A stretch of 64,000 bases of DNA from a virus: IMG/VR virus record IMGVR_UViG_3300042988_000341, positions 24,578-88,577 of that record; one strand, 5' to 3'. Positions 13,388 through 30,359 of the stretch are shown here, piece by piece (position 1 is the stretch's first letter; every line of letters starts with the position of its first letter). Both the position numbers and the translations under genes were made by a program. The notes under the pieces are model-generated. The model was not told the origin of the DNA. It ran no database searches and saw nothing but the letters and a program-made list of their open reading frames with translations.

Positions 13388-13412
13388 CAGTATAACATTG
13401 TAGTATAGAATA

Positions 13413-14390: not shown

Positions 14391-14401
14391 AGAATACATA
14401 T

Positions 14402-15426: not shown

Positions 15427-15434
15427 TCTAAATA
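15427..15434 (+). promoter_or_regulatory. late-promoter-like octamer TCTAAATA
   Basis: TCTAAATA sits 15 nt before the ATG at 15450, with TAGGAG (15438-15443) in the leader. It lies at the head of the enzyme island and is the best candidate promoter for the block running to 25434. Confidence 0.45.
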
Positions 15435-15449
15435 TCATAGGAGCAAATA

Positions 15450-15761
15450 ATGTCAACAAAAGTATTAGTAGATAACATCAAGCATAGATTTAATCATAAT
15501 GAATCAAAGCTATACCTCAAAGAAAAATATACCAATAAACTAACTATAGCTCATAGTGGCGGTATGTTTGCAATTACACCACAGTTAATCTCATTTCTCC
15601 GTGAGCCTACCAATGATACTAACTATGAAATCTTAATAGATATCTATGGTAATCCAGTGGAGGTAGATCGCCAGGAGTTATTAACATTGGCAGCACAGAC
15701 CTACAGTGAGGTCATGTCCGAGTGGCACACTGAATATACTGAACTACAGGCAAAGAGATAA
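15450..15761 (+). CDS. conserved hypothetical phage protein
   Basis: The 103-residue soluble, charged protein is likely alpha/beta, with a central segment of strands (FAITPQLISFL, YEILIDIYGNPVEVDR) followed by a helix ending in QAKR. A good TAGGAG precedes the start. Its stop overlaps the next start (TAATG), coupling it to the first glycosyltransferase-like gene. I recall similar short proteins near tail genes of T4-like phages but cannot assign a function. Confidence 0.55.
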   Translation: MSTKVLVDNIKHRFNHNESKLYLKEKYTNKLTIAHSGGMFAITPQLISFLREPTNDTNYEILIDIYGNPVEVDRQELLTLAAQTYSEVMSEWHTEYTELQAKR

Positions 15762-16567
15762 TGTCAGGATTAACCAGAGGTGTAGTAATCATAGCGCATA
15801 ACACTATGAAGGACGACTACTATCGTATGGCAGTCGCAGTCGCCCAACGTGTCCAGCGCTTCCTCAATCTACCCACAACTATTATCACAGACGAGACTAC
15901 TCTGGCGTCACATGGCGCTGGGGATTACAAGTTCGACCATACCATTGTGGTCGAACCCGATCGTAATAATCACCTTAAGAACGCAGTGTGGATCAATAAG
16001 AACAGATATCGAGTATATGACCTTACACCGTATGACGATACTTTAGTACTAGATACTGATTATATGATTAATAGCAGCAGACTCCTCCAAATTTTTGAAC
16101 AACCCAGTGACTTCTGCTGTTATCGTACCGCTAGATATATTGGCACAGGCAATGCTACCAATGAAATGATTGGTAAAAACTCCCACTCTACATACTGGGC
16201 AACAGTGATGCGATTTACCAGGACAGAACGCACTAGAGACCTATTCGAAATGATTAAGTTGATACAGGAGAATTATGTATATTATGCTGAATTACATGGA
16301 TTCCTACCGTATACCTATCGCAATGATCATGCCCTAACAATCGCCCTCCACACGGTAAATGGACACATGGAGATAGCCACCGACTTTATTATTGGCGAGC
16401 TCCAACATATCGGCTCAGATGGTCTGGTAGAGCGAGTTGATGATACTACGTATAATATCAAGTGCGATATTAGTATTAGAGGCAGACTAAAGAAGTCAGT
16501 AATCACTGTTAAGGATCAAGATTTTCACATGCTGAATAAGGACAACTATATGAGTTTAATCGTATGA
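15761..16567 (+). CDS. GT-A-like glycosyltransferase
   Basis: The 268-residue protein opens with a strand GVVIIAHN and a helix containing AVAVAQRV. A second strand follows (TTIITDE), then YDLTPYDDTLVLDTDYM at about residues 86-102. LDTD (D98, D100) fits the DxD nucleotide-sugar/metal motif of GT-A enzymes, placed after the expected beta-alpha-beta core. Later it has RNDHALTIALH, resembling the acidic base region of such enzymes. It pairs with the next gene, a clear relative, with a 4-nt overlap. The donor and acceptor are unknown. Low-similarity GT-like folds that lack activity cannot be excluded. Confidence 0.6.
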   Translation: MSGLTRGVVIIAHNTMKDDYYRMAVAVAQRVQRFLNLPTTIITDETTLASHGAGDYKFDHTIVVEPDRNNHLKNAVWINKNRYRVYDLTPYDDTLVLDTDYMINSSRLLQIFEQPSDFCCYRTARYIGTGNATNEMIGKNSHSTYWATVMRFTRTERTRDLFEMIKLIQENYVYYAELHGFLPYTYRNDHALTIALHTVNGHMEIATDFIIGELQHIGSDGLVERVDDTTYNIKCDISIRGRLKKSVITVKDQDFHMLNKDNYMSLIV

Positions 16568-17367
16568 GCATCAAAGATACCCAAGGATACGTAATAATGG
16601 CAGTTAATACTACGCAAGTAGATTATGTCCATCTAGCCACAGTTCTCCGTGATAGTATTCACCGAGTTATGCCAGCTGCCCTAGTATCTATTATTACCAA
16701 TGTGGATATAGTAGATGATGGGTGGGACAAGATCATACCCATCGTGGATATGGATACGACTGATTGGAAATTAGCCAATGATTGGCAAGTATATGAATTA
16801 TCTCCATACACTAGAACTATAAAACTAGAAGCTGATATGTATATTCCTAGAGATATTACATACTGGTGGGATATTCTTAAAGATAGAGACCTCAATATTT
16901 GTACTACTATTAGAGATTACCGTGGAGTTATATCTAATGATAGGTCATATAGACGAACATTCGTGGACTCTGGTATACCTCAAACATATAACGCTATCAC
17001 CTATTTTAAGAAGTCCCAATTGGCCAGTGAATTCTACGCAGCAGTCAAGAACATTTTTGAGAACTGGAGCGATTATCTACCACTGCTGAAATTCAGTACG
17101 GAAGTACGTGCCACTACCGATGTGGTATATGCTCTAGCATCTATGGTGGTCGGTGAGGAGAATACAACACTACCGTCATTCAAAGAATTCTCCATGGTTC
17201 ATATGAAACGTGCTATTAACAACTTAGAAACAGAAGTATGGCATGATGAGCTAGTATATGAGGTATATCCAGATACTATGAGAATAAACACGTATCCTCA
17301 GTTATACCCCGTACATTATCATAACAAAGACTTTGCGTACAAGATTGTAGAGGAACTCAATGATTGA
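16564..17367 (+). CDS. GT-A-like glycosyltransferase, paralogue
   Basis: The 267-residue protein follows the same plan as the gene before it: strand GYVIMAVN, helix, strand VSIITNVDI, then YELSPYTRTIKLEADMYI. The DxD position reads E89-A90-D91, a conservative change that still offers two acidic ligands. The start overlaps the previous stop by 4 nt (ATGA), so the two are probably translated together. Tyr and Trp are abundant. It may form a heterodimer with its neighbour or use a different sugar donor. Confidence 0.55.
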   Translation: MSIKDTQGYVIMAVNTTQVDYVHLATVLRDSIHRVMPAALVSIITNVDIVDDGWDKIIPIVDMDTTDWKLANDWQVYELSPYTRTIKLEADMYIPRDITYWWDILKDRDLNICTTIRDYRGVISNDRSYRRTFVDSGIPQTYNAITYFKKSQLASEFYAAVKNIFENWSDYLPLLKFSTEVRATTDVVYALASMVVGEENTTLPSFKEFSMVHMKRAINNLETEVWHDELVYEVYPDTMRINTYPQLYPVHYHNKDFAYKIVEELND

Positions 17368-17752
17368 TCTTAATAACTTAACGCCAGAACAACAGTTAGA
17401 GCTAGCCCAAGCATTACAGGTAGCTTTATCTACAATTCAGCCACTACCTCAACCAGAATACAGAGTATATTACAGCAGTGATGGTAAGGTGATCACCTAT
17501 ACCACCGAAGATTTACCCGGTGACTATTTAGTAATTACTCTTGAAGATTACCAGCAAGCTAGGCATGATGCCGTAATCATAGGTGGTAAATTAATATATA
17601 CGCATGTTCGCCGGCATGTAACTAAGTTAGTCAAAACTAAAAATAATACTCAAGGGTTTGCTGCTAGTAAATATGACATTAGTGTAGTCGCACAAGGTAG
17701 CTACCCAGATGTCAATCATTACCAAGTACAAGCCAATGAAATTAAACGATAA
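17360..17752 (+). CDS. hypothetical protein
   Basis: The 130-residue protein overlaps the preceding stop by 8 nt. The N-terminus is a Gln/Leu-rich helix (LTPEQQLELAQALQVAL). The rest is beta-rich with IYTHVRRHVTKLVKTK, a basic stretch. No recognised domain or signal. It is probably a helper or a small virion protein co-expressed with the island. Confidence 0.45.
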   Translation: MIDLNNLTPEQQLELAQALQVALSTIQPLPQPEYRVYYSSDGKVITYTTEDLPGDYLVITLEDYQQARHDAVIIGGKLIYTHVRRHVTKLVKTKNNTQGFAASKYDISVVAQGSYPDVNHYQVQANEIKR

Positions 17753-18674
17753 GACCCAGGAAGAAGTATTAGAAGTTATAGAGATAGATGAACTTGACAT
17801 AGTATACCTATCATATGATGAACCACAGAAAGAAGACTTCTGGATCAAACTAAAGAACATGGCTCCATGGGCTACTAGAGTAGATGGAGTTCGAGGTAGT
17901 GATGCTGCTCATAAGGCAGCTGCCGCCGCGTCCAATACTGAACGATTCATTCTAGTGGATGGTGACAATATGTTAGAAGAGCACTTCCTGGACGAGTGCC
18001 TAACTATCACCGCTAGTAATCGGGATGCTCAATTCCGTTGGCGGGCCAAGAACTGTATCAATGGCCTCCACTATGGCAATGGTGGCGTATCATGTTGGAC
18101 CAGATCCTATATCAACAATATGCGTACTCACGAGGCCAGTGATCCCACTAATACTCGAACTAACATTGAGTTCTGCCTGGATCCTAATTATTGGCCTATG
18201 CATAACTGCTACTCTACCACCTACCCTAACTATACTCCTCAACAGGCATGGAGAGCAGGATTCCGTGAAGGTGTAAAGATGTGTAATCGCGATGGTCCAA
18301 TGCCTGCTAGCGCCAGCACCTTCCTCCAACATGTATGGCCAGGCAATCTCCAGAATCTCCACATATGGCAAACCATCGGGCGTGACGTAGAGAATGGTCA
18401 GTGGGCTATACTAGGAGCTAGACTAGGCACACACTATCTAATGTTACGTGACTGGGACTATAGAGAAGTACAGGACTTTAGCTGCTTAGACCGACTATGG
18501 GAGCTACATAAGAATGATGATGAGCACGTAGCTCACGAGTTGATGCTAGACTTAAACAGGGCACTAGGCACTACGATAGTGGAGCTAGACGCAAGTGCCT
18601 CTAAATTCTTTAAAGATTACGTTAGTGTAAAATGGCGCAATACTGATATTATGAACAGAGAAACATATGAATGA
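17709..18674 (+). CDS. glycosyltransferase-like protein with DGDN motif
   Basis: The 321-residue protein has a GT-A-like core: strand LDIVYLSYDE, helix, then RFILVDGDNM, where D84-G85-D86 fits a DxD site. Later blocks are CINGLHYGNGGVSCW and the region around QQAWRAGFREGVKM and WQTIGRDVENGQWAILGA. The same blocks occur in the same order in the C-terminal half of the protein at 28267, so the two are homologous. The start used here overlaps the previous gene by 44 nt and has AAGG upstream. A second ATG at 17736 would remove nine residues and reduce the overlap. Confidence 0.6.
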   Translation: MSIITKYKPMKLNDKTQEEVLEVIEIDELDIVYLSYDEPQKEDFWIKLKNMAPWATRVDGVRGSDAAHKAAAAASNTERFILVDGDNMLEEHFLDECLTITASNRDAQFRWRAKNCINGLHYGNGGVSCWTRSYINNMRTHEASDPTNTRTNIEFCLDPNYWPMHNCYSTTYPNYTPQQAWRAGFREGVKMCNRDGPMPASASTFLQHVWPGNLQNLHIWQTIGRDVENGQWAILGARLGTHYLMLRDWDYREVQDFSCLDRLWELHKNDDEHVAHELMLDLNRALGTTIVELDASASKFFKDYVSVKWRNTDIMNRETYE

Positions 18675-20241
18675 ACAACGAATAAATGTTAGTGATATTC
18701 ACTGGTTCAGAACAGGAAACAAGTCTGATCATGGCCGAAATGTTGAGTCAATTAAGCAATTACTTGGTCAAGTTGGTCCAGGGTTCTGCTTAGCTAAGTT
18801 CAGCCAGGTCACTATGCATCTAGGTCAAGGTACAGTTCATAGTTGTCACCACCCTAGAGTTCATCATATACCACTAGAGGAACTCAAAGAATCCCCAGCA
18901 GCCCTGTTTAATAGCAGGTACCTACAGGGATTAAGAACTGAGATGAAGGCAGGTGAACGTCCATCGGAGTGTGGATACTGCTGGAGAATTGAAGATGGTC
19001 AGGGTACTGGCACTAGTGATAGGTTCCTCAAAAGTATGACTGAATGGTCAGTACCACACTATGATATTGCTATTAATAGCACTGATACTACTATACACTA
19101 TCCGTCCTATCTAGAGGTTGACTTTAGTAATGTCTGTAACTTTGAATGTATCTACTGTGGTCCAGAGTTCAGTAGTAAGTGGGTAGAGAACATCAATCGT
19201 CATGGTCCAGTTATTATGCTTAGAAATACTGATGGCTTGACTGGACAACAGGGATACAAGTCAGACTATGCTACTATGCACTACAAGAACAAGGATCATA
19301 ACCCACATCTAGAGGCGTTCTGGCAATGGTGGCCAGAGATGGTCGGTCATCTCAGAGTATTCCGCATTACTGGTGGTGAGCCATTAATGAGTCGAGAAAC
19401 ATTTAAGATGATGGATTACTTTGCTGAGAACCCGCACCCAGATATAGAACTAAACATCAATAGTAATCTAGGCGTACCACAGAAACTATGGGATGAATTC
19501 ATCTCTAAGGTGGAGAAGCTAGATAGGAACAATCTAACGGTATATACCTCAGTGGACGCATGGGGCGCTAGAGCTGAATACATTCGAACTGGCTTAGACT
19601 TCCAGTTATTCCAACAACGATATATCCAGCTATGTGAATTGGGTATTAAAGTTAATACTATGTGTACATTTAACATTCTAAGTGTTACTAGTATCTTAGA
19701 TTACCTTAAGTGGATAATTGAGATGAAGCGTAGATTCAACTATAATGCGTACTATGCTGACTTAGAGCAGAAATTTGGCTTTAAGTGGTCAACTCAGGCT
19801 ACAGTTAATAAACCAATTAAGGTAGGTATAGACATGCCGTATCTACGTCACCCACTACACTTAGACGTACTGGCCACAATCAACCAACAGTTAATTCAAG
19901 ATTATTTAATCCCAGCATTCAAATTTGTACAGGAGAATCAGAGTACCACGATTGTTACTGAGGATGGCACTGAACTAAGCTCCTGTACGGGGTTCGAAGC
20001 ACATGAGGTAGCAATGTTTACTAGAATCGTTACTGACATCTTAGATAGATGGAGAACCAGAGATGGTGAACGTGTTAGACACGAACGAGCCAAGCTATTT
20101 GACTTCCTAACTGAGATCGACGAGCGCCAGGGCTCTAGCTTTAGAGATACATTCCCTGAGATGGAATCTCTATGGCAACGTTGCGAACTAGATATCGATA
20201 GTTATTATAACCCTGGTCCTCTAACACTAACTAATATATGA
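18667..20241 (+). CDS. radical SAM protein, twitch/SPASM-like, 1 of 4
   Basis: The 524-residue protein has a Cys-rich N-terminal region (FCLAKFSQ, VHSCHHP, CGYCW) that can hold an auxiliary Fe-S cluster. It is followed by the radical SAM core with CNFECIYC (C157, C161, C164) and the SAM-binding RITGGEPLMSR. An extra C-terminal region of about 150 residues is specific to this copy. The order, auxiliary Cys before the core, matches phage twitch-type radical SAM proteins. Such enzymes usually modify peptides or sugars through a 5'-deoxyadenosyl radical. It overlaps its neighbours by 8 and 4 nt. The substrate is not indicated by sequence. Confidence 0.8.
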   Translation: MNEQRINVSDIHWFRTGNKSDHGRNVESIKQLLGQVGPGFCLAKFSQVTMHLGQGTVHSCHHPRVHHIPLEELKESPAALFNSRYLQGLRTEMKAGERPSECGYCWRIEDGQGTGTSDRFLKSMTEWSVPHYDIAINSTDTTIHYPSYLEVDFSNVCNFECIYCGPEFSSKWVENINRHGPVIMLRNTDGLTGQQGYKSDYATMHYKNKDHNPHLEAFWQWWPEMVGHLRVFRITGGEPLMSRETFKMMDYFAENPHPDIELNINSNLGVPQKLWDEFISKVEKLDRNNLTVYTSVDAWGARAEYIRTGLDFQLFQQRYIQLCELGIKVNTMCTFNILSVTSILDYLKWIIEMKRRFNYNAYYADLEQKFGFKWSTQATVNKPIKVGIDMPYLRHPLHLDVLATINQQLIQDYLIPAFKFVQENQSTTIVTEDGTELSSCTGFEAHEVAMFTRIVTDILDRWRTRDGERVRHERAKLFDFLTEIDERQGSSFRDTFPEMESLWQRCELDIDSYYNPGPLTLTNI

Positions 20242-21539
20242 ATAATAATATGAATAATAATAAAACAATATGCGCGGTACCCTTTGTTAGTACCATGATT
20301 AACACTGATACTACAGTTAGATACTGCTGTATGGTAGCTAAATGGACTAATAGCAGAGTCACCAAAGATGATGGCTCATCATATACATGTAGAGATAACT
20401 TTACTACTGATTCCTGGAATAGTCAGTATATGCGAAACTTACGAGTGTCTATGTTACGAGGTGAAACTATTACTGGCTGCGACACTTGTTACAAACAAGA
20501 GGAAGACGGCAGAACTAGTAATAGACAGCACAGTATCATGGAGTGGAATTGGCGCATAGGCGAGGACCAACTGCGCGACATCTTTAAACATGCTGAGGCC
20601 AACGATGGCCATCTCGATATGCCGCCGGTATACCTGGACCTACGACTAGGTAATCTGTGTAATCTTAAATGTCGTATGTGTAACCCGTGGAATAGTAGTC
20701 AAATTGTCAGAGAGCACAAGGACAGCTTGGTTAATAACCCCGAATACATTCGAGTATGGGAGAAGACTTTTGGTAAATTCCCAGAGAAGGTTATGGATGA
20801 ACAAGTATGGTTCGATGGTGATGTTCTATGGGATCAAGTAATATCATTAATCCCTGTACTAAAGAAAGTATACATGACTGGAGGCGAGCCTACCTTAATC
20901 AAAAACAACTTTAAGTTCATGGAAGAATGTATCAAACAAGGTAGAACAGACATTGCCCTGTTCTTTAACACTAACTGCACTAATATCAACAGACAGTTCT
21001 TAGGACTAATTAGTCAGTTCGATGAAGTAAGTATCAACGCTAGTATGGATGGTATCGGTATAGTTAACGATTATATCCGCGCCCCTAGTAAGTGGGAACA
21101 AATCAGCACTAACATCGAGCGATTGGCTGAACTACCAAACGTTAAACTGGGAGTTACTCCTACGATACAGGTGTATAATGTCTATAATATAGTGGCCATG
21201 ATCAAATGGGTAGAGCATATTCGAACTAAGTACGAACGAGATATCTTTATTGACTTCCTCATCAACCAGCATCCACTACACCTGAACACCAATATATTGC
21301 CTCAACACATTAAAGATGAGGTTATCGCGGAGGTGGTAGATTTCAAAGATAATCATATGGCTAATCATCATCCAATGACTATCAACAGTTTGACTGGACT
21401 AATAGGACATTTAAAAACGCCCACTCCTCCTAATCATCAAGAGCAACTAGAGCGCTTCAAGGTATATACCAGGGCACTGGATACAGAACGTGGTCAATCA
21501 TTGATTGATGTAGACGCAAGATTAACAGGATTATTATGA
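20238..21539 (+). CDS. radical SAM protein, twitch/SPASM-like, 2 of 4
   Basis: The 433-residue protein has auxiliary Cys in ICAVPF, RYCCM and GCDTCYKQE at the N-terminus. The radical SAM triad is CNLKCRMC (C141, C145, C148), preceded by LDLRLGN and followed by the SAM-contact segment YMTGGEPTLIK. The first codons form a small duplication (MNNNMNNN), so an in-frame second ATG at 20250 is possible. Translation is coupled to both neighbours by ATGA overlaps. It is closest in plan to copy 3, including the RxxMLRGE and SMxW spacer features. Confidence 0.82.
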   Translation: MNNNMNNNKTICAVPFVSTMINTDTTVRYCCMVAKWTNSRVTKDDGSSYTCRDNFTTDSWNSQYMRNLRVSMLRGETITGCDTCYKQEEDGRTSNRQHSIMEWNWRIGEDQLRDIFKHAEANDGHLDMPPVYLDLRLGNLCNLKCRMCNPWNSSQIVREHKDSLVNNPEYIRVWEKTFGKFPEKVMDEQVWFDGDVLWDQVISLIPVLKKVYMTGGEPTLIKNNFKFMEECIKQGRTDIALFFNTNCTNINRQFLGLISQFDEVSINASMDGIGIVNDYIRAPSKWEQISTNIERLAELPNVKLGVTPTIQVYNVYNIVAMIKWVEHIRTKYERDIFIDFLINQHPLHLNTNILPQHIKDEVIAEVVDFKDNHMANHHPMTINSLTGLIGHLKTPTPPNHQEQLERFKVYTRALDTERGQSLIDVDARLTGLL

Positions 21540-22801
21540 TTGACATTAATAAACTTTGTGTGCAGCCATGGATGCACCTAGCCAGCTTTAATAATGGCCA
21601 GGTGCCTCTATGTTGCGTTGCTCAACCAGAGCAAGGTATTAATTTAAATACCCAAACGCCGATCCAAATATGGAATAGCCAACAGTTTAAAACTGCTAGA
21701 TTGCAGTTCTTAGCCGGTGAACAACCACCACAATGTAGTGCTTGTTGGCGCGAAGAGGCGGCTGGAGTTAAAAGTCACCGCCAGATTGAGAATACAATGT
21801 GGTCGCGAATCCTGGGTCCAGAGTATCTACAAGAGTTAATTGCTAGTACTGGCGAAGATGGCACTCTTGATAGAAACCCAATTACCTTAGATTTGCGTAT
21901 AGGTAATACCTGTAATCTACAGTGCGTTATGTGTAGGCCGCATGATAGTAGCAGATGGCTAGCTGATAGTCGGAAACTAGCCCAATCATTGACTAGTCCT
22001 GGTGCTCGTGGTGATTGGGAATATAAGGCTACCAGTATCAAGTCAACTGATTGCTTTGACTGGTTCTCTAGACTAGAAACTCAGAATGCCCTGGGCGAAT
22101 TCATGGGAGATATTCAGAGAATTGTCTTTGGCGGCGGCGAGCCACTAATGCTTAAAGAACACTTAGAGTTTATTACTAGACTGGTAGAGTCAGGTCACGC
22201 TGGGAACATTACCCTGGGCTATCATACTAATGGCACTCAATTAACTGAACGATTCATTGAGTTATGGAGTCACTTTAAAGCAGTAGAGTTAATGATTAGT
22301 GTGGACGACTGGGGACAACGTAACGACTACGTAAGATACCCTAGCAGTTGGTCAACTTTGCTAGCTAACCTAGACAGACTAGATAATACTGCTGACAATA
22401 TTAAGGTTAATATCTTGGCTACAGTACATGCTATGAATATCTACAATCTACCTGAGTTCGCCCAGCAGGTCTTAGACCGAGGATGGTCCAAGATAGGTAG
22501 CAGAAATCACGGTCTGTTCTTTGTGGGCACCACCCACTGGCCTCAATATATGAGTACTCAAGTACTACCTGCCACAATTAAAGATCAGGTAGCTAGTCAT
22601 TGGGCTAAATTTCCTGCTATAATGGAGCATCCTCAGTGGCGGAACAGAATTCACCAACAACTAGAGTTCATGCTGAGTAGAGATGAGTCTAGTAGATTCC
22701 CGGACCTCGTTGATTATATCGACCGTCTCGATGACATTAGGCCCATCAAGTTCAAGGATCTATACAGTGAATACTATCAACTCCTTCGAGGCACACAATG
22801 A
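21536..22801 (+). CDS. radical SAM protein, twitch/SPASM-like, 3 of 4
   Basis: The 421-residue protein has N-terminal auxiliary Cys (LCVQPW, PLCCV, CSACWREE), then IWNSQQFKTARLQFLAGE, a segment typical of this twitch family. The core carries LDLRIGNTCNLQCVMC (C126, C130, C133) and VFGGGEPLMLKE. It is coupled by ATGA overlap to both neighbours. The full motif set argues for an active enzyme rather than a decayed copy. Confidence 0.82.
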   Translation: MIDINKLCVQPWMHLASFNNGQVPLCCVAQPEQGINLNTQTPIQIWNSQQFKTARLQFLAGEQPPQCSACWREEAAGVKSHRQIENTMWSRILGPEYLQELIASTGEDGTLDRNPITLDLRIGNTCNLQCVMCRPHDSSRWLADSRKLAQSLTSPGARGDWEYKATSIKSTDCFDWFSRLETQNALGEFMGDIQRIVFGGGEPLMLKEHLEFITRLVESGHAGNITLGYHTNGTQLTERFIELWSHFKAVELMISVDDWGQRNDYVRYPSSWSTLLANLDRLDNTADNIKVNILATVHAMNIYNLPEFAQQVLDRGWSKIGSRNHGLFFVGTTHWPQYMSTQVLPATIKDQVASHWAKFPAIMEHPQWRNRIHQQLEFMLSRDESSRFPDLVDYIDRLDDIRPIKFKDLYSEYYQLLRGTQ

Positions 22802-23811: not shown

Positions 23812-23813
23812 CT

Positions 23814-23918
23814 ATGCTTAAAACACTAGCTAATCTCCTGTACTATGGCCCACTACTATGGTACAAACAACGCAAGAAACTCAAAGAGCTCCGTCGTCAA
23901 GACCCATTTACCTATTAA
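23814..23918 (+). CDS. 34-residue basic amphipathic peptide
   Basis: This is a tiny ORF squeezed between the last radical SAM gene (2-nt gap) and the sulfotransferase gene (2-nt gap). The first half is hydrophobic (TLANLLYYGPLLWY). The second half is strongly basic (KQRKKLKELRR) and ends DPFTY. The tight spacing on both sides argues that it is a real gene. It could be a membrane-binding anchor. Because it follows four radical SAM genes, it is also a formal candidate for a modified peptide. No leader cleavage motif is evident. Confidence 0.55.
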   Translation: MLKTLANLLYYGPLLWYKQRKKLKELRRQDPFTY

Positions 23919-23920
23919 CT

Positions 23921-24682
23921 ATGAATACAATCATTATTAACGCCCATACCAGAACAGGCAGCGAACTTCTACTAGCTATTCTTCGTAGTCGAGGGTACTA
24001 TACACTAGGTGAAATTGTTACTAACTCGGTGCCACAATCATTCATCACTAATCACAGGCGGGACCCCAACTTCGAACACGAATACTTTGAACAGTTTAAT
24101 CGTGGACTAAGATATCTACTTAACGATACTAATGCGCCTAATAAGGTAGTTAAAGTAATGATCAACCATCGCCATGCTATTAGGCCATATATCTACCAAT
24201 ATGCTACCAGTCAAATACTACTACATCGTCAGGATATGTTTGCTAGTCAGATTAGTCATGGAGTAGCTATGGCCAGTGGCCAATGGATTAAATGGGGCTC
24301 AAATCAACCATTGGAGTGGAAGTCATTGGCTACTCCATTCACTGGCACGTTAGATGCCCAGAACTTCGAGCAACGTCTCCAGTGGAGAATCTCGGACTAT
24401 GAAGAATTACTTGAATCGACACCACCGTATACCAGAGTAGTTATGTACGATGAACTAGTAGAATATGCCCGGGCTAAGCCCCACTCTCTATATACTATAC
24501 CAACTGATCCACCAGTGATTAGTAATATCGAGGAGCTCCAGGACATATATTACAGGTATCTGCCTAGAGTCGAGGCTATTAATGGACGAATCACAGCAAT
24601 CAAAACCTCTGCATGCAATAGTTTAGATAGTACAGATAGTACAGATACCACGTTCGCCCAATACTTAGATAGCCTATGTTAA
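23921..24682 (+). CDS. sulfotransferase-like protein
   Basis: The 253-residue protein is counted from the ATG at 23921. A longer frame open from 23858 would run over the small upstream gene. The N-terminus IIINAHTRTGSELLLAILRS has the 5'-phosphosulfate-binding-loop pattern (RTGSELL). QILLHRQDMFASQISH at about 96-111 fits the 3'-phosphate region of PAPS sulfotransferases. The length is typical of the family. The C-terminus has a short STDSTDT repeat. The acceptor is unknown; a glycan made by the upstream glycosyltransferase-like enzymes is one possibility. It overlaps the SGNH gene by 7 nt. Confidence 0.65.
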   Translation: MNTIIINAHTRTGSELLLAILRSRGYYTLGEIVTNSVPQSFITNHRRDPNFEHEYFEQFNRGLRYLLNDTNAPNKVVKVMINHRHAIRPYIYQYATSQILLHRQDMFASQISHGVAMASGQWIKWGSNQPLEWKSLATPFTGTLDAQNFEQRLQWRISDYEELLESTPPYTRVVMYDELVEYARAKPHSLYTIPTDPPVISNIEELQDIYYRYLPRVEAINGRITAIKTSACNSLDSTDSTDTTFAQYLDSLC

Positions 24683-25434
24683 CCACCAGATACCATCAAA
24701 CAGACTCCGAGGAGCTGCTGGCCTACAATATGGAGCATCAGCCCGCTAGCTGGCGCTGGCATAAGGAGACGTTTGACTATACCTTTAACAGTCGTGGGTG
24801 GAGAATGAATAAGGAGATCGAGGACGTTGATTATTCTAACTATCTCCTGTTCCTAGGGTGTAGCTATACTGTGGGCATTGGGCTGCCAGTAGAAGAAACA
24901 TTCCCCGCAATTATTGCCCAGCAGACTGGCAGGGACTATATTAATGCTGCCCAAGGTGGCACCAGTACCTATTACTCATGGCATACATGTATTGACCTTA
25001 TCGCCACCCTGCCAGGGGCACCTGGTGCCATTGTTATTAACTGGCCAGCTCTCCACCGCAATATGTATTGGCAGGCTAACGGTCAGCCTGTCCATTGTAG
25101 TCCACGTTTGATGAATAATGTGCCCGCCGAGTTTAAAACAGGGTTCACTAGTCACTGGATGAATGAGACTGACCTGGTCAATAAATTTAATAAGGCCAGG
25201 CTGAGTCTCCAGCTGTTATGCGCGGCCAAGAATATTCCACTATGGGATTTCACTCAATTTGATACTCCTGTACAGCAGCAGACTGGTGTGCCGCTGATCA
25301 TGGCCGATACTGGCAGTAGTGACTCTAATGGTCGGTGGGCCAGAGATATTCAGCGTGGTAGTCAGTGGACCGCGCATCTTGGTCCCGACCATCACCAGTA
25401 CGTGGCCAATCGATTCCTCGCGAACTTTTCATAA
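24676..25434 (+). CDS. SGNH/GDSL-like hydrolase
   Basis: The 252-residue protein has block I as LLFLGCSYTVGIG, with candidate nucleophile S63. A Gly in the AAQGGTSTYY region and the strand AIVINWPALHRNMYW fit later SGNH blocks. Near the C-terminus, HLGPDHHQYVANRF can supply the Asp and His of the triad. No signal peptide is seen, so it acts in the cytoplasm or as part of the particle. Family members act as esterases or acyltransferases, often on glycans. It is the last gene of the left arm of the island; a 128-nt gap follows. Confidence 0.65.
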   Translation: MLTTRYHQTDSEELLAYNMEHQPASWRWHKETFDYTFNSRGWRMNKEIEDVDYSNYLLFLGCSYTVGIGLPVEETFPAIIAQQTGRDYINAAQGGTSTYYSWHTCIDLIATLPGAPGAIVINWPALHRNMYWQANGQPVHCSPRLMNNVPAEFKTGFTSHWMNETDLVNKFNKARLSLQLLCAAKNIPLWDFTQFDTPVQQQTGVPLIMADTGSSDSNGRWARDIQRGSQWTAHLGPDHHQYVANRFLANFS

Positions 25435-25536
25435 CTTTATTTTTCTACTTACTCGTCCCAACTGCGTTGCAAATACTTTTTAGTGGTGGACGGCTAAAAT
25501 AGCTAATAATCGCCTAATTAACGGTATTTTTCACTG

Positions 25537-25544
25537 AATAAATA
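25537..25544 (+). promoter_or_regulatory. late-promoter-like octamer AATAAATA
   Basis: The 128-nt gap before the carbamoyltransferase gene contains AATAAATA 18 nt upstream of its ATG. No clear Shine-Dalgarno follows; the leader is AT-rich. Nothing else was recognised in the gap. Confidence 0.45.
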
Positions 25545-25562
25545 TAAAGAACTTTATCTACT

Positions 25563-27026
25563 ATGAACTACATTGGAATATCTTGTGGCTACCATGATGC
25601 TGCTATTACCGTTATTGACGGTACTGGTAATATAGTGTATGCTGGTCATGCTGAGCGGTATGGTGGTGGTAAACATACTCCACACTTGAATAGTGGCATT
25701 ATTAATGCTGCTATGGCTAGTATCAATACTAGTACTGATAGTTATAGTCTACATTATTATGAGCGTCCACTAGTTAAATGGTTACGCAGATGGTGGGCTG
25801 GTGAGAGGCCATCGTGGAGGAGTATAGATATAGGTAGTATTATTGGTACGCAGAATATGGCTCTACTTGGTTATGATAGTAGGAAGATTAATACTTATAA
25901 TCATCATCTTAGTCATGCGGCTGCTGGCTTCCAAACTAGTCCATATATGGATGCTACTGTGGTTATTATTGATGCTATTGGTGAGTTTGAATGTGTTACT
26001 ATATGGAAGGCAGGGTGGGATGATGGTAGGGCAAAATATACGAGATTGTATACTAGATATTATCCGAATTCGATCGGACTCTTTTATACTGGAATTACTA
26101 GAAGGTGTGGCCTACGCCCATTAGACGAGGAGTATATCTTAATGGGTATGGCTGCCTATGGTGTTCCTAGATATGTTGAGGAGATGAGGCGGTTATTAGA
26201 TATGAATTTACATCGTGGTTGTGATTGGTTCTTGCCTGATGCTGATATCTATGACTTGGCTGCTAGTGCACAGGTGCTGGTGGAGGAGCTAATAGTGGAG
26301 GTGGTGGAGATTGCTAAAAAAATTGGAGCTAGCTCCAATTTAGTATACGGTGGTGGTCTAGCATTAAACTGTAGGGCGAATAGATTGCTGGGTGATTATT
26401 ATTCTAATGTATGGATTATGCCTAATCCTGGTGATGCTGGTAGTAGTTTAGGCGCGGCCGCTCTAGGTTATGGTGGCCGAATTAAGTTTAATAATTGCTA
26501 TTTGGGCACTAATATTAGTGGACAGTATCCGGTTACGGAGTTGTTGGAGGAGTTATTATCTACTGGTATAGTTGGAGTAGCATCAGGTAGGGCGGAGTTT
26601 GGTCCACGAGCCTTGGGTAATAGAAGTTTATTAGCTGACCCTAGAGGTAAGGATATTCGAACTAGGGTGAATAATATTAAACAACGCCAGCAATTTAGAC
26701 CATTTGCTCCTGTTATCTTAGAGGAGCATGCCGATATGTACTTTGATCTGGTACCGGGTGTTAATAGTCAATATATGCAGGTAGTGGCTAGATGTAGAGT
26801 GCCAGAATTATTCCCTGCTATTGTTCATTATGATGGTACCAGTAGAGTTCAAACAGTAGCGGCAGATGGTTCTGGCATCCGACTATTATTGGAGGCATGG
26901 TACGAGAGGACAGGTTGCCCTATGTTATTAAATACCTCGCTGAATATTCGAGGTAGGCCTATGGTTAATACCCAGGAGGATGCTGCTCAGTTTGAGGCTG
27001 AATATGGTGTTCGGGTATTAAGTTAA
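25563..27026 (+). CDS. NodU/TobZ-family O-carbamoyltransferase
   Basis: The 487-residue protein has an N-terminal Kae1-like domain with ISCGYHDAAITVID, HHLSHAAAGF (H114 and H118 as probable iron ligands) and VVIIDAIGEFE (D137). GGLALNCRANRLL and PNPGDAGSSLGAA follow. The C-terminal domain has GRAEFGPRALGNRSLLADPR and FRPFAPVILEE, both diagnostic of the carbamoyltransferase C-domain. It should transfer carbamoyl from carbamoyl phosphate via carbamoyl-AMP to a hydroxyl group, usually on a sugar or secondary metabolite. The stop overlaps by 4 nt the end of the convergent 27023 gene. Gene length is near the lower end for the family. Confidence 0.88.
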   Translation: MNYIGISCGYHDAAITVIDGTGNIVYAGHAERYGGGKHTPHLNSGIINAAMASINTSTDSYSLHYYERPLVKWLRRWWAGERPSWRSIDIGSIIGTQNMALLGYDSRKINTYNHHLSHAAAGFQTSPYMDATVVIIDAIGEFECVTIWKAGWDDGRAKYTRLYTRYYPNSIGLFYTGITRRCGLRPLDEEYILMGMAAYGVPRYVEEMRRLLDMNLHRGCDWFLPDADIYDLAASAQVLVEELIVEVVEIAKKIGASSNLVYGGGLALNCRANRLLGDYYSNVWIMPNPGDAGSSLGAAALGYGGRIKFNNCYLGTNISGQYPVTELLEELLSTGIVGVASGRAEFGPRALGNRSLLADPRGKDIRTRVNNIKQRQQFRPFAPVILEEHADMYFDLVPGVNSQYMQVVARCRVPELFPAIVHYDGTSRVQTVAADGSGIRLLLEAWYERTGCPMLLNTSLNIRGRPMVNTQEDAAQFEAEYGVRVLS

Positions 27027-27595
27027 ACGCCGCATACTACTAGATGAATACGCTCCTCTAGCCCGCCATTATATACCCAGTGAACTTCCCTAGTATCTAA
27101 TTCATACCAATGATTATCTAGTGGAAGATGATAACAGCTAGCGGTAGTAGGTAGTTCACTTCTGTCTAGGTTCATATCAGTGGTAGCATGTGCTACCTGT
27201 GCTCCTGGATTAGTTTTTAATACTAGATGATATCTGACCTCGGCGTCCTTATGTACACTTAGGCCAGTTTTAGGTGGTAATCTCATAAATCTAATTCTAC
27301 CTAGCCTAATATCAAGATGTTCTTGTAACTCCTCAATACAACGGCGAACTGTCCAGGTATTATCAATATTCCACTGGGTGAAGTCTACCTCGTGCGCTCT
27401 GTAACCACCAATACTTGATGAATATAAACTACCAGTGCCGTCTCTCCAGCAATCTATACTGGTTGGTTGAGAATTTAATGCTAGTTGATTCATGTCCTGC
27501 CATACATCAGCTAGTATTTTATTATCTAATAGTTGCTGTAAATCAGCTAGTACAGCCTGGGCAGGCGCGGTTAAATTTAATTTTTTAAGAAACAT
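27023..27595 (-). CDS. 2-oxoglutarate/Fe(II) oxygenase, Asp/Asn hydroxylase-like
   Basis: The 190-residue protein has GLSVHKDAEVRYHLVL, giving H115-x-D117, and a distal EVHWVYNGG with H172, the HxD...H facial triad of Fe(II)/2OG enzymes. ERIHLVVCG gives R182, suited to bind the 2-oxoglutarate carboxylate. The layout fits the aspartyl/asparaginyl beta-hydroxylase group. A paralogue lies at 29728 with near-identical core motifs. It directly follows the methyltransferase gene on the minus strand (stop then ATG with no gap). Confidence 0.72.
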   Translation of the reverse strand: MFLKKLNLTAPAQAVLADLQQLLDNKILADVWQDMNQLALNSQPTSIDCWRDGTGSLYSSSIGGYRAHEVDFTQWNIDNTWTVRRCIEELQEHLDIRLGRIRFMRLPPKTGLSVHKDAEVRYHLVLKTNPGAQVAHATTDMNLDRSELPTTASCYHLPLDNHWYELDTREVHWVYNGGLEERIHLVVCGV

Positions 27596-28237
27596 TTATT
27601 TTCTCCAAATTGCCATGTATCTAGTATATTCAGCAGTAACGAATTCACCAGTATAATAGGGAGCTTCCACCCTATTCTGAACTAGGAAGTCGCTAATATC
27701 AGTGGAGCACCTAATATGCTCCTCGCACTCAAAGTAGTTGTTGCCCTGTACTACAATTAAGGTACCAGTTGGAATATTATCCAACCAGGTATCATAAGTT
27801 GCCTGTAGAACATGCTCAGTGGAAGTATTAATTACGATATCTGGTCTAATATCAGATTGGTATTGATAGGTAGCCATATCTGCGGTCACCGCCTTAAATC
27901 GCCAATCGTCCATCTCGTGAATTTTATTTACTTGATCTGCTATAGGCTCACACCAGGAATCTAAGTCAATACTGCGTATCTTCCTAACATTAATATCAGA
28001 TTGAATTATCATATTAGCTAGAATTCCTATCCACCCACCAAAGATATAGATATTTTGAGGAGCGCCCGCCATAACATACTCACTGAGATGATTAACCAAC
28101 CAACCCTTAGATGCTAATTGACCCCACCATAAGGCATCTAATGCCCTAGTACGCTCCTGGTGACTGTCAATATTACGAATAGCATTCATCCATTGAGCTA
28201 TCTCTAAATTACTGATCTTAAACTCTGATTTATTCAT
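27596..28237 (-). CDS. SAM-dependent methyltransferase-like protein
   Basis: The 213-residue protein has IYIFGGWIGILANMI as the glycine-bearing SAM loop and RSIDLDSWCEP, whose acidic residue after the second strand fits ribose binding. PDIVINTSTEHV and IPTGTLIVVQGNNY occupy later strand positions. The glycine motif GGWIG is divergent from classical GxGxG, so activity is likely but not certain. The ATG lies 5 nt after TATAAATA on the minus strand, without a Shine-Dalgarno. Confidence 0.6.
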   Translation of the reverse strand: MNKSEFKISNLEIAQWMNAIRNIDSHQERTRALDALWWGQLASKGWLVNHLSEYVMAGAPQNIYIFGGWIGILANMIIQSDINVRKIRSIDLDSWCEPIADQVNKIHEMDDWRFKAVTADMATYQYQSDIRPDIVINTSTEHVLQATYDTWLDNIPTGTLIVVQGNNYFECEEHIRCSTDISDFLVQNRVEAPYYTGEFVTAEYTRYMAIWRK

Positions 28238-28242
28238 GGAGG

Positions 28243-28250
28243 TATTTATA
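28243..28250 (-). promoter_or_regulatory. late promoter box TATAAATA, minus strand
   Basis: This is an exact match to the T4 late TATA box on the minus strand. Five nt separate it from the ATG at 28237, so predicted transcription starts on the start codon. It is back to back with the plus-strand box at 28254. Confidence 0.6.
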
Positions 28251-28253
28251 TGG

Positions 28254-28261
28254 TGTAAATA
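28254..28261 (+). promoter_or_regulatory. late-promoter-like box TGTAAATA
   Basis: TGTAAATA is followed by 5 nt and then the ATG at 28267. It mirrors the minus-strand box in the same 29-nt divergent gap. Confidence 0.45.
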
Positions 28262-28266
28262 ACTCT

Positions 28267-29748
28267 ATGATAGAAGATGATGAAGACTACTGGGAAATTC
28301 CTGATAATATCGATAGGAGTTCGTTTGATTTTACTTGGCGTCCTGACCTCTATGAGCCTCCGTATATTCATCAATTCCCTATTAAATCTAATATAGATGG
28401 CGGTCCAAGATATATTGCTGCTGGCGCAACCGATATTAAATATCATACCGAGCCGATTGCTACTATTATTCCAGACTGGAGTAAATGGTGGATACCGGAC
28501 ACCATCGATCGGAATTCATTTGATTTTACATGGGAGCCCGATATCTACGAGCCTCCATATATTCATCAATTCCCTACTAAATGGGCCAATGATGCTGGCC
28601 CTAGATACATAGCTACTGGCGCTACTGATTTTAAATATCACGATGAACCAGTAGCTGATATTAATATTGACTGGAGTAAATGGTGGATACCGGACAATAT
28701 TGATTGTAGTAATTTTGATTTTACATGGGTGCCAGGAAAAACTGATAGGCCATACATATATCAATTCGGTACCCAACATCAAAAGACAGGCGGACCTAGA
28801 TATATTCAACCAGGTAGCAGAAGATTTAAATATGAATCGTCTCAACACGCAATTAAATTACCAGATACTGATAATTGGGTAGTACATCCTGATCTAGAAG
28901 TTATTGACTTTGATTGGAGCTGGCACCCAGACAGTACTGACAGCATTTATAACTATGTTTTTGGCACAAGAGATATACCTCCACAGGAAATAAATTTAAT
29001 TACCTACAAGATGGCTACCGGAGCACCTAGTAAATATTCAGATATTATGGCCAACGCTAGATGGCAGGATCTAGATATTATATTCGTTAGTAATGGTGAG
29101 GTCGGCGAACAGCAACGATATGATAGATTGTGCGAGGTGGCTGGCAGAGAAGTTAAATGGGTACGAGGCGTTAATGGCAGAGAGAATGCCCTTAGCGCGG
29201 CAGCCCAATTATCCACTACCCAATGGTTTATCTTATTCCCTGGTAAATTATGGGCAGATGCGGCGTTTGATTTTAATTTCCAACCCAATCGAACATATGA
29301 GCCTAAGCATTATATTTTTTATGCCAAGAACCCATTAAATGGATTGGAATATGGGCATCAGGCAGCAGTATGTTATAATCGACAATTAGTATTAGAGACT
29401 ATCAACTACGGCCTCGACTTTACCATGAGTAAATTACACGATATTGTGCCAGTATTAAGTGGAGTAGCCCAATATAACAGTAGTGTTATTATGACCTGGC
29501 GCACGGCATTCCGTGAGGTGATTAAATTACTACATGCTGGTGATGCTGAGAGCGCCGCCAGATTAGAAGTTTGGCGAACAGTGGCAGACGGAGAGAATGC
29601 TGAGTGGAGTATAGCAGGCGCTAATGATGCGTTGGATTATTATACGGAAGTATCGGGTGATATATCAAAACTCATGGACACATTTAGTTGGCAGTGGTTG
29701 GAAGAATATTTTAACAGCAAATATTCATTAACAACCGCAGACCACTAG
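28267..29748 (+). CDS. tandem-repeat protein with degenerate GT-like C-terminal domain
   Basis: The 493-residue protein has three 65-residue repeats (about 9-73, 74-138, 139-203) and a partial fourth (204 to about 250). Each has a WxIPDxID start, FDFTWxPD, PPYIHQFPTK-like and GPRYIATGATDFKYH-like segments. The C-terminal half matches the protein at 17709: VRGVNGRENALSAAAQ, WFILFPGKLWAD, AKNPLNGLEYG, WRTAFREVIKLL, NAEWSIAGAND. The DxD of that relative (DGDN) is replaced by PGKL, so transferase activity is probably lost. It is flanked by two oxygenase genes, the nearer of which overlaps its 3' end by 21 nt. Confidence 0.7.
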   Translation: MIEDDEDYWEIPDNIDRSSFDFTWRPDLYEPPYIHQFPIKSNIDGGPRYIAAGATDIKYHTEPIATIIPDWSKWWIPDTIDRNSFDFTWEPDIYEPPYIHQFPTKWANDAGPRYIATGATDFKYHDEPVADINIDWSKWWIPDNIDCSNFDFTWVPGKTDRPYIYQFGTQHQKTGGPRYIQPGSRRFKYESSQHAIKLPDTDNWVVHPDLEVIDFDWSWHPDSTDSIYNYVFGTRDIPPQEINLITYKMATGAPSKYSDIMANARWQDLDIIFVSNGEVGEQQRYDRLCEVAGREVKWVRGVNGRENALSAAAQLSTTQWFILFPGKLWADAAFDFNFQPNRTYEPKHYIFYAKNPLNGLEYGHQAAVCYNRQLVLETINYGLDFTMSKLHDIVPVLSGVAQYNSSVIMTWRTAFREVIKLLHAGDAESAARLEVWRTVADGENAEWSIAGANDALDYYTEVSGDISKLMDTFSWQWLEEYFNSKYSLTTADH

Positions 29749-30306
29749 ATGAATTCTCTCCTGCTCACCGCCGTTATATACCCAATGAGGTTCTCTAGCG
29801 TCTAATTCGTACCAGTGATTATCTTGTGGTATATGATAGCATTGTGCTACCGATGGTAGTTCAATATCACTGTCAGTAGTTACATGATGGGCGAATACAA
29901 CTGCTGGATTAGTTTTTAATACTAGATGATACCGTAATTCATAATCTCGATGAACACTAAGGCCAGTTCTGGGCAATAATCTCATAAACCTAATTCTACC
30001 CAGTTCAATGCCCAGAGTATCTCTAAGTAACTCAAGCTGCTGTCTGACATACCACGACTGATCGATATTCCATCGAGTAAAGTCATTCTCATTGAATAGA
30101 TAAACATCATTCTTATAGTCGTATTTACTGCCGATACAGTCCTGCCATGGATCAATACTATCTGGGCGACTAGTCAAACCTACCTGATTCCTCATATGCC
30201 AGATATTGTCGTTCTCTGACCACGCTGTTTGTGTCTCCAATATAGTGATTAAATCATTATTAATTCTGTTGCTATCACTTGTTATATCTAGCTTCTTTAA
30301 GAACAT
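29728..30306 (-). CDS. 2-oxoglutarate/Fe(II) oxygenase, paralogue
   Basis: The 192-residue protein has GLSVHRDYELRYHLVL, giving H119-x-D121, PHWVYNGG giving H174, and ERIHLVVCG giving R184. Most core residues match the protein at 27023; the N-terminal 80 residues differ, which suggests different substrate recognition. The Shine-Dalgarno AGGAG lies upstream on the minus strand, and a CTAAATA box is found at 30327-30333. Its 3' end overlaps the repeat-protein gene by 21 nt. Confidence 0.72.
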   Translation of the reverse strand: MFLKKLDITSDSNRINNDLITILETQTAWSENDNIWHMRNQVGLTSRPDSIDPWQDCIGSKYDYKNDVYLFNENDFTRWNIDQSWYVRQQLELLRDTLGIELGRIRFMRLLPRTGLSVHRDYELRYHLVLKTNPAVVFAHHVTTDSDIELPSVAQCYHIPQDNHWYELDAREPHWVYNGGEQERIHLVVCGC

Positions 30307-30326
30307 TTAGTGGTTACTCCTGTCGT

Positions 30327-30333
30327 TATTTAG
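30327..30333 (-). promoter_or_regulatory. late-promoter-like box CTAAATA, minus strand
   Basis: CTAAATA on the minus strand, 20 nt before the start of the 29728 gene with an AGGAG in between. Divergent partner of the plus box at 30352. Confidence 0.4.
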
Positions 30334-30351
30334 TTGTTCAAAATCTCTTTG

Positions 30352-30359
30352 TCTAAATA
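30352..30359 (+). promoter_or_regulatory. late-promoter-like box TCTAAATA
   Basis: TCTAAATA is followed by GAGG (30365-30368) and the ATG at 30378. It is identical to the octamer at 15427 that heads the island. Confidence 0.4.

Follow-up and report, generated by a model that had tools for sequence, protein, structure and literature searches.

A fibre-linked glycosyltransferase and radical SAM cassette in uncultured T4-like aquatic phages, with a possible role in fibre decoration

Results and discussion

An enzyme-rich island directly follows the fibre genes

The window, by which we mean the whole stretch of DNA that was analysed, comprises 64,000 nt (positions 24,578-88,577) of IMGVR_UViG_3300042988_000341, an 88.6-kb contig from an uncultivated T4-like phage. 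The contig carries baseplate wedge and hub genes and a gp44-like clamp loader as T4-like markers, and gp23 was present in 17 of 22 related contigs. Upstream of the island, a giant ORF of about 6,080 codons ends at window position 7724 and matches phrog_10938 (virion structural protein); its position and size, and these only, suggest that it is VrlC-like. Next come four genes on the forward strand: fibB (10496..12430), encoding a fibre protein of the FIB family, and three copies of an ADH-family gene, namely adhA (12440..13387), whose fibre-tip-like product is our proposed substrate, adhB (13413..14390; 39% identity to adhA) and adhC (14402..15403; 41% identity to adhA). A FIB-family gene also directly precedes ADH in most relatives. 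The AF2 model of adhA (pLDDT 88) is beta-rich and has 3 relatives in BFVD, all from phages, while no structural match to it was found in the PDB. The position after FIB and the phage-only, beta-rich model suggest that ADH forms the fibre tip.

Directly 3' of these three fibre-type genes, the island genes span 15450-30306, in the order g1, GTa, GTb, g4, GTc, rSAM1-4, sulfotransferase-like, SGNH-like, NodU-type, Hyd1, MT, Rep_GTd and Hyd2. An earlier note, made from the sequence without database searches, had described an enzyme-rich island at this position, and all of the genes that it listed are present. A chimeric assembly is unlikely, because both halves of the island recur, in order, in independent contigs. 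The note had also placed the island directly after fibre genes with late-type promoter boxes. Indeed, the genes run continuously from fibB through g1 to rSAM4, with intergenic gaps of 9-46 nt between fibB and g1 and overlaps of 1-44 nt between g1 and rSAM4, and the fibre genes and cassette core are thus predicted to constitute one late-type operon. The boxes themselves needed redefinition: the exact T4 late box TATAAATA was depleted (1 found versus 5.5 expected) and was dropped as the island's signal in favour of ATAAATA, the sole heptamer enriched before genes (37-fold), and CTAAATA. One or the other lies upstream of fibB (ATAAATA, 28 nt), g1 (CTAAATA at 15428..15434, forward strand, 22 nt before the start codon), the NodU-type gene (ATAAATA), MT and Hyd2 (CTAAATA).

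Glycosyltransferases and radical SAM enzymes of the core

The core, entirely on the forward strand, opens with g1 (15450..15761), which encodes a conserved protein of 103 aa. It is followed by GTa (15761..16567), a GT8-like glycosyltransferase that had no profile match of its own, and whose relatives were likewise without a Pfam match; GTa is assigned by its homology to GTb, and D98 and D100 of its DTD motif are invariant in the family alignment. GTb (16564..17367), also GT8-like, matches phrog_1903 and the profile of glycogenin (GT8; E 5e-5), an enzyme that glycosylates a protein. The small conserved gene g4 (17360..17752) precedes GTc (17709..18674), the most conserved core gene, which has a DGD motif and a confident structure model (pLDDT 89.7). 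Its best PDB matches are GT2-type enzymes of the GT-A fold (TarS, TarP, PcManGT, RmlT and SunS), with a best E of 3e-4 and a probability of 0.97, yet a low TM of about 0.3. At least 591 relatives of GTc were found in IMG/VR, while ADH, g1, GTb, GTc and Rep_GTd had no match among 50,697 GenBank phages, a collection that does include cultured pelagiphages.

Three of the four radical SAM genes, rSAM1 (18667..20241; 282 bits), rSAM2 (20238..21539; 354 bits) and rSAM3 (21536..22801; 357 bits, with PF13186 SPASM in the N-terminal part), score above the curated cut-off of 170 bits for NCBIfam NF033640 ("twitch domain-containing radical SAM protein"). The fourth, rSAM4 (22798..23811), falls below it (26.5 bits), matches only the general PF04055 (E 7e-11) and belongs to another subfamily. 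All four contain CxxxCxxC, a motif found in 459/459 of the long twitch radical SAM relatives, 444/459 of which also have an N-terminal CxxC (auxiliary cysteines). Phage contigs carry between 1 and 14 radical SAM genes, and across loci this number showed no correlation with ADH copy number (r 0.01). The cassette-type family, nearly absent from the bacterial genomes sampled, represents a large reservoir of radical SAM enzymes yet to be characterised. Such phage genes may carry wrong host-metabolism labels (e.g. ahbD) in virome surveys (PMC9301287).

The core is conserved together with one fibre family

The earlier note had named co-occurrence in related phages as the test of its proposal. We therefore consider two samples: 69 independent contigs selected by GTc alone, and 48 loci selected by ADH with at least 4 kb downstream. 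Co-occurrence was conserved in both directions. The GTc-chosen loci contained ADH in 67 cases, g1 in 66, the GT8 pair in 68, g4 in 63 and a twitch radical SAM gene in 67; among the ADH-chosen loci, the GT8 pair and GTc were each found in 47, radical SAM genes in 46 and g1 in 43. Gene order was nearly always ADH-g1-GTa-GTb-g4-GTc-rSAM(n), and since the cassette is so conserved in relatives, chance co-occurrence is excluded. Hundreds of uncultured T4-like water phages appear to carry the cassette after one tail-fibre family, as a near-fixed glycosyltransferase set followed by a variable tail; the phage of the window has one of the richer versions. The genes g1 and g4, which are small, conserved and do not encode enzymes, are part of the cassette unit as well.

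Pairwise distances of F8, FIB, ADH, g1, GTa, GTb, g4 and GTc were mutually correlated (r = 0.65-0.87), while those of the first radical SAM gene correlated with the core and fibre genes at r = 0.16-0.37 only. The core is therefore inherited together with the fibre, and the tail is exchanged between phages. Coevolution of single ADH and glycosyltransferase genes beyond linkage was weak, and a specific GTc-FIB pairing in a mirror-tree analysis (partial r 0.49 overall) was absent inside subgroups and was dropped. In 19 loci chosen by MT, radical SAM genes and the GTc family were each present in 18. Around rSAM2-chosen loci ADH lay within 10 kb in only 10 of 45, radical SAM genes there often occurring without ADH; the radical SAM/NodU/MT part therefore occurs in one or more further settings. 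We note that enzymes acting on the receptor of this fibre would be expected to show such linkage as well.

Variable tail enzymes and their possible substrates

Of the families that the note had assigned by motif, the radical SAM enzymes, GTb, GTc, the NodU-type enzyme and both oxygenases are now backed by profiles or structures. Three tail genes are recognised by motif only: a sulfotransferase-like gene (23858..24682, forward strand; TRTGS loop), an SGNH-hydrolase-like gene (24676..25434, forward; GCSYT motif; family in 6/69 GTc-chosen loci) and the methyltransferase-like gene MT (27596..28237, reverse; conserved G.W.G and an acidic residue). The first had no match in Pfam, PHROG, NCBIfam or PDB sequences, and a distant relative located between GTc and rSAM2 in two loci (L005 and L006) keeps the loop as WRTGS; the other two had no profile support.

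The NodU/TobZ-type O-carbamoyltransferase gene (25563..27026, forward; phrog_1601) encodes both carbamoyltransferase domains (PF02543, E 5e-30; PF16861, E 3e-49), with TobZ, GdmN and decarbamoylnovobiocin carbamoyltransferase as PDB relatives. With 127 bits against the curated cut-off of 1000 bits for the NodU equivalog NF041651, it is therefore a member of the carbamoyltransferase family and not nodulation protein NodU itself. The solved relatives carbamoylate sugars and macrolactams. The island enzyme is a clear relative of these bacterial O-carbamoyltransferases and of NodU, and differs in being phage-borne, fibre-linked and accompanied by glycosyltransferases and twitch radical SAM enzymes. 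Phage glycosyltransferases and NodU-type carbamoyltransferases are also known to act on phage DNA bases, which raises the possibility that the island hypermodifies phage DNA. We regard this as the least probable of the readings considered: the cassette is linked to fibre genes and not to replication, the thymidylate synthase at 38122-39033 is of the ordinary type (TIGR03284, 349 bits), and the NodU-type gene occurs in just 10 of the 69 GTc-chosen loci.

Two Asp/Asn beta-hydroxylase-like oxygenase genes, Hyd1 (27023..27595; PF05118 (Asp_Arg_Hydrox), E 6.5e-7) and Hyd2 (29728..30306; PF05118, E 4.6e-9), both on the reverse strand, flank Rep_GTd (28267..29748, forward). The latter had been taken for a repeat protein; it is instead a degenerate GTc paralogue (hhalign 98.9%, E 3e-17) that has lost the DxD motif and has four repeats of about 65 aa in front. 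In relatives with giant repeat proteins, the repeat units align in register with GTc by hhalign, at an E of 0.07 that is not significant alone, and the repeat-unit model matches the C-terminal GTc domain of these proteins (1e-10 in L161). The position of the hydroxylases would fit a scheme of direct protein modification, in which side chains in ADH or in the repeat protein would be changed by the radical SAM enzymes, hydroxylases, methyltransferase and carbamoyltransferase, and single sugars attached by the glycosyltransferases. Elsewhere, radical SAM/SPASM proteins act as peptide maturases, many maturase models gave weak matches here, and glycogenin, the nearest solved relative of GTb, has a protein as acceptor. 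We nevertheless consider such direct protein modification improbable, as the repeat protein is a glycosyltransferase paralogue and does not look like a peptide substrate, and the best-supported tailoring enzyme, the NodU-type one, points to sugars together with the nucleotide-sugar enzymes of relatives.

In those relatives, the tails encode an epimerase, a GDP-mannose dehydratase-like enzyme, a DegT aminotransferase, UDP-glucose dehydrogenase, dTDP-dehydrorhamnose epimerase and an FkbM methyltransferase, all of glycan type. They also carry AMP-ligase, amidinotransferase-like, desaturase, aminotransferase and carrier-protein-like genes, and there is a strongly conserved marine variant of about 13 genes; both would fit an island that makes a diffusible small molecule, and the note had likened it to a natural-product or surface-glycan pathway. 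A pure natural product is, however, very doubtful, as the core consists of three glycosyltransferases tied to a fibre gene, and in the fibre-linked loci the core is not accompanied by any conserved gene for a carrier, a precursor peptide or export.

Fibre or host surface as the target

The main rival holds that the target is a glycan of the host surface, either O-chain or capsule, which the enzymes modify in the course of infection to keep out other phages or prevent progeny from attaching to debris. Its closest precedent is the "host recognition cluster" (HRC) of pelagimyophages, which, in the parts of PMC7029224 drawn on here, is a region between VrlC and gp14 whose content is argued to modify the O-chain. 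These too are T4-like aquatic phages, the variable region follows a giant virion gene (VrlC there; here the ORF matching phrog_10938, a putative VrlC-like protein in the corresponding position), and tail fibres, GT8-type genes (the HRC being GT8-rich) and radical SAM cassettes are common to both. However, those parts describe the HRC as non-syntenic and variable, in contrast to the near-fixed unit found here, and the ADH-g1-GTa-GTb-g4-GTc-rSAM(n) arrangement does not appear in them. The cultured Vibrio phages KVP40 (T4-like) and K566 likewise carry several radical SAM genes each. In K566, two that exceed the NF033640 cut-off are interleaved with GT8 genes, one of which weakly matches an LPS galactosyltransferase model. 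Compared with those of the cassette, the radical SAM proteins of KVP40 and K566 are about 25% identical, the ADH/g1/GTc core is lacking, and no fibre gene is annotated in the stretches viewed.

Classical gtr modules for O-antigen conversion need membrane proteins, namely a membrane flippase and membrane glycosyltransferases. By a hydropathy scan, a crude predictor, no island protein of the window had a TM-like segment, and cassette-wide such segments were almost absent from the 69 loci (g1 0/67, GTa and GTb 1/138, g4 0/64, GTc 0/76, radical SAM 4/269, variable tail 8/280). Furthermore, 117 sampled proteins, mostly from the variable region, matched 52 Pfam families, and the 25 of these that were listed included neither a flippase nor a ligase. 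The scarcity of TM segments fits a cytosolic protein acceptor. Taken with the near-obligate link between the cassette and a single fibre-tip family and with the overlapping operon and its late-type boxes, this favours the fibre among the targets that the note had named (fibre, phage peptide or host surface), and we judge the host surface to be rather unlikely, though the strongest competitor.

We thus propose, with about even confidence, that the cassette enzymes glycosylate the phage's own fibre in the cytosol and tailor it chemically, and that the finishing enzymes can be swapped. We infer the following course. The cassette would be expressed late, from the operon that it shares with the fibre genes. 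GTa and GTb (GT8-like) and GTc (GT2-like) would build a short glycan in the cytosol on newly made fibre protein, most likely on the ADH fibre tip from the adjacent genes, and g1 and g4 may assist as adaptors or chaperones. The variable tail would then finish the glycan or nearby residues: the twitch radical SAM enzymes by C-H chemistry on a sugar or side chain, the NodU-type enzyme by O-carbamoylation, the hydroxylases by hydroxylation, and, if the assignments of MT, sulfotransferase and SGNH hydrolase hold, the remaining enzymes by methylation, sulfation and acyl exchange. The resulting chemistry could adjust receptor binding, or conceal the fibre from decoys and defences of the host. Since tails pass from one phage to another and the glycosyltransferase core remains with its fibre gene, every phage may have its own fibre-tip chemistry.

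More tentatively, T4-like aquatic phages of a large lineage without cultured members might build chemically diverse glycans on the fibre tips that bind the receptor, using a conserved three-glycosyltransferase core and interchangeable arrays of a largely viral radical SAM family. If so, these phages would vary fibre chemistry as well as fibre sequence. Phage glycosyltransferases beside fibres have been noted before and explained as host-surface modifiers. In the present set, dozens of independent genomes show near-obligate, syntenic linkage to a single fibre-tip family, and whose molecule is modified thereby becomes a testable question.

Freeman et al. are said to have found in 2023 that mycobacteriophage virion proteins (capsid and tail tube) are glycosylated (cited in PMC12619734). 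The proposed likeness to that system lies in glycans on the phage's own virion proteins; in the cassette, phage-encoded glycosyltransferases are genetically linked to a structural gene. To our knowledge, mycobacteriophage virion glycosylation involves no radical SAM array or tailoring tail. Lastly, outside the island, the window encodes an NAD-dependent epimerase/dehydratase (39377..40348, forward strand; PF01370, E 6e-44, and PF16363) that is likely to supply nucleotide sugars, and such a gene was found in the cassette flanks of 13 of the 69 relatives.

Layout and setting of the island

The window comprises bases 24,578-88,577 of a contig, 88,577 bases long, from an uncultivated virus. Upstream of the island lie T4-type baseplate genes (wedge, hub) and an ORF of about 6,080 codons that crosses the left edge of the window, ends at window base 7724 (window 1-7724 and L011:1672 onward) and matches phrog_10938, a virion structural family; a gp44-like clamp loader lies downstream. 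Given these flanking genes, the island seems to occupy the site of the pelagimyophage "host recognition cluster", which PMC7029224 places after VrlC.

The fibre genes fibB (10496-12430) and three members of the fibre-tip-like ADH family (12440-15403) are followed, in order, by g1, GTa, GTb, g4, GTc and rSAM1-4, that is, 2 small conserved proteins, 3 glycosyltransferases and 4 radical SAM enzymes. Intergenic gaps are 9-46 nt until g1, and all junctions from g1 to rSAM4 overlap, by 1-44 nt, so that the run is a tightly packed operon, probably with translational coupling. Behind rSAM4 lie sulfotransferase-like, SGNH-like and NodU-type genes, a Hyd1-MT pair (minus strand), the repeat-bearing GTc paralogue Rep_GTd, and Hyd2 (minus strand). 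ATAAATA is the sole heptamer enriched 5' of genes (37-fold, six sites), and ATAAATA or CTAAATA precedes each of fibB, g1, NodU, MT and Hyd2; with these common boxes, fibres and island look like a single expression class. The exact TATAAATA box was not enriched in the window.

The enzyme island described in the earlier note was confirmed, with corrections. Profiles identified rSAM1-3 (NF033640), rSAM4 (PF04055), Hyd1 and Hyd2 (PF05118) and GTb (glycogenin), while GTc was recognized by its GT-A fold and the NodU-type carbamoyltransferase by profile or fold. GTa was assigned by homology to GTb and Rep_GTd by homology to GTc; the sulfotransferase, SGNH and methyltransferase assignments were made by motif alone.

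Co-occurrence in relatives

Scanning IMG/VR for relatives yielded at least 591 for GTc, at least 548 for ADH, 112 for rSAM2 and 35 for MT. In the 69 GTc-chosen loci left once near-identical contigs were removed, the frequent families were GTa/GTb (68/69), radical SAM genes and ADH (67/69 each), the fibB-type fibre family and g1 (66/69 each) and g4 (63/69); F8, usually immediately 5' of the fibre gene, was present in 58/69. The string ADH-g1-GT-GT-g4-GTc was intact in 51/69 in its strict form and in 65/69 in a relaxed form. The reciprocal, ADH-chosen test matters more, and its sample partly shares contigs with the first: among 48 loci offering 4 kb or more of downstream sequence, GTa/GTb and GTc were each found in 47, radical SAM genes in 46 and g1 in 43. 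The tail after GTc is variable, most loci having 2-6 twitch radical SAMs among the ten genes 3' of GTc; across the 69 loci, NodU occurred in 10, SGNH-type genes in 6 and 13, an epimerase in 13, RS4 in 19, MT in 2 and HYD in 1.

Alternative architectures and giant repeat proteins

Among 45 rSAM2-chosen loci, a GTc-family gene was found in 31, MT in 23, NodU in 22 and ADH in just 10, and the gene strings contain at least 3 further recurrent architectures. One, marine, has about 13 genes: UDP-sugar dehydrogenase-like, oxygenase-like, aminotransferase, radical SAMs, desaturase, radical SAMs, SGNH, NodU, a giant GT-repeat protein and MT. The first half of the window island is the fibre-linked form; the second (NodU, Hyd, MT, Rep_GTd, Hyd) looks like the other architectures, and its NodU-Hyd-MT-Rep order is kept in close relatives (L172, L174/L008, L175). 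The marine pathway (4-5 radical SAMs) has near-identical order in L161, L155, L156, L159, L160 and L164, with no ADH nearby. A further recurrent set, in L192, L196, L200, L202 and L203, combines a ClpP-like gene with GTc (240 aa)-MT-rSAM-rSAM-amidinotransferase-like-rSAM-rSAM; both ClpP and amidinotransferase were named by eye.

In Rep_GTd, the DGD motif of GTc is replaced by PGK, and four repeats are present. Marine members of its family reach about 1,000-1,950 aa, and 16 of 17 have 9-18 tandem GT-core unit matches, the final one inside a full GTc domain (L161:14077-18651, L141:14347-17340 and similar). Such tandem degenerate GT-A units ending in a full GTc form an unusual architecture, worth separate study.

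Distribution in phages and cells

Searching 50,697 GenBank phages (tblastn, E 1e-5) gave no match for ADH, g1, GTb, GTc or Rep_GTd, nor for rSAM1 or MT. Within GenBank phages, rSAM3 matched nothing beyond Vibrio phages K566/K567 and a single-virus fragment of marine origin; searching from a K566 radical SAM reached 40 Vibrio phage records, KVP40 among them, and NodU relatives are widely carried by cyanophages. NF033640 genes (1-14 per contig) were present on every one of 22 large related contigs (71-367 kb), 17 of which carried the T4 capsid gene gp23.

In cellular genomes, GTc found the cassette on eight MAG contigs (L207-L214), labelled Rhodobacteraceae, Neomarinimicrobiota, Rickettsiales, Neisseriaceae, Pacearchaeota or Gammaproteobacteria; since these cassettes mostly adjoin phage fibre genes, they are probably proviruses or viral contigs that binning placed in MAGs. 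At 1e-60, NF033640 was found in 1/240 genomes of one class and 2/149 of one phylum, and 2 of these 3 were MAGs already found with the cassette. Nine distant actinobacterial GTc loci were also recovered, some resembling small operons of GT-like genes. The GTc homologues of L215, L218, L219 and L222 show 26-34% identity, some beside other GT-like genes, and these four loci lack a radical SAM of the NF033640-type cassette family.

A total of 261 viral "ahbD" genes have been reported, their function being doubted (PMC9301287). Cassette radical SAMs such as rSAM3 (window 21536-22801) weakly match AhbD and many maturase models, and the viral "ahbD" auxiliary-gene calls may belong to this family.

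Probable target of the cassette

Between-locus distances of the fibre and GT-core proteins correlated with one another at r 0.65-0.87, whereas the first radical SAM gave 0.16-0.37, a comparison blurred for the radical SAMs by paralogy; from this difference we conclude that the GT core remains with the fibre while the tail is swapped between phages. TM-like segments are absent from the island proteins and almost absent from the cassette proteins of relatives, a pattern easier to reconcile with a soluble acceptor than with a lipid-linked glycan, although LPS is also modified by peripheral soluble glycosyltransferases. Nucleotide-sugar enzymes recur in the tails of relatives, and the window has an epimerase elsewhere (39377-40348). 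The most economical account, in which we infer acceptor, sugar and radical SAM reaction, is that the neighbouring fibre protein would be glycosylated first and then receive locus-specific tailoring. The earlier note had named fibres, a phage peptide or a host-surface polymer as targets; the fibre option is favoured, and that interpretation as a whole is partly supported. Phage clusters for fibre-linked glycosylation or for host recognition are already known as a kind; new here are a fixed core tied almost obligatorily to a single fibre-tip family and the arrays of radical SAM genes. No description of the fixed ADH-g1-GTa-GTb-g4-GTc-rSAM unit was found in the open-licence papers searched.

Other genes in the window

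By eye, a large subtilase-like protein with a GTSQASPQ motif is encoded 3' of fibre genes at 53725-55644, and the protein encoded at 43029-43856 (minus strand) has an apparent signal peptide and a DRGH motif as in DNA/RNA non-specific endonucleases.
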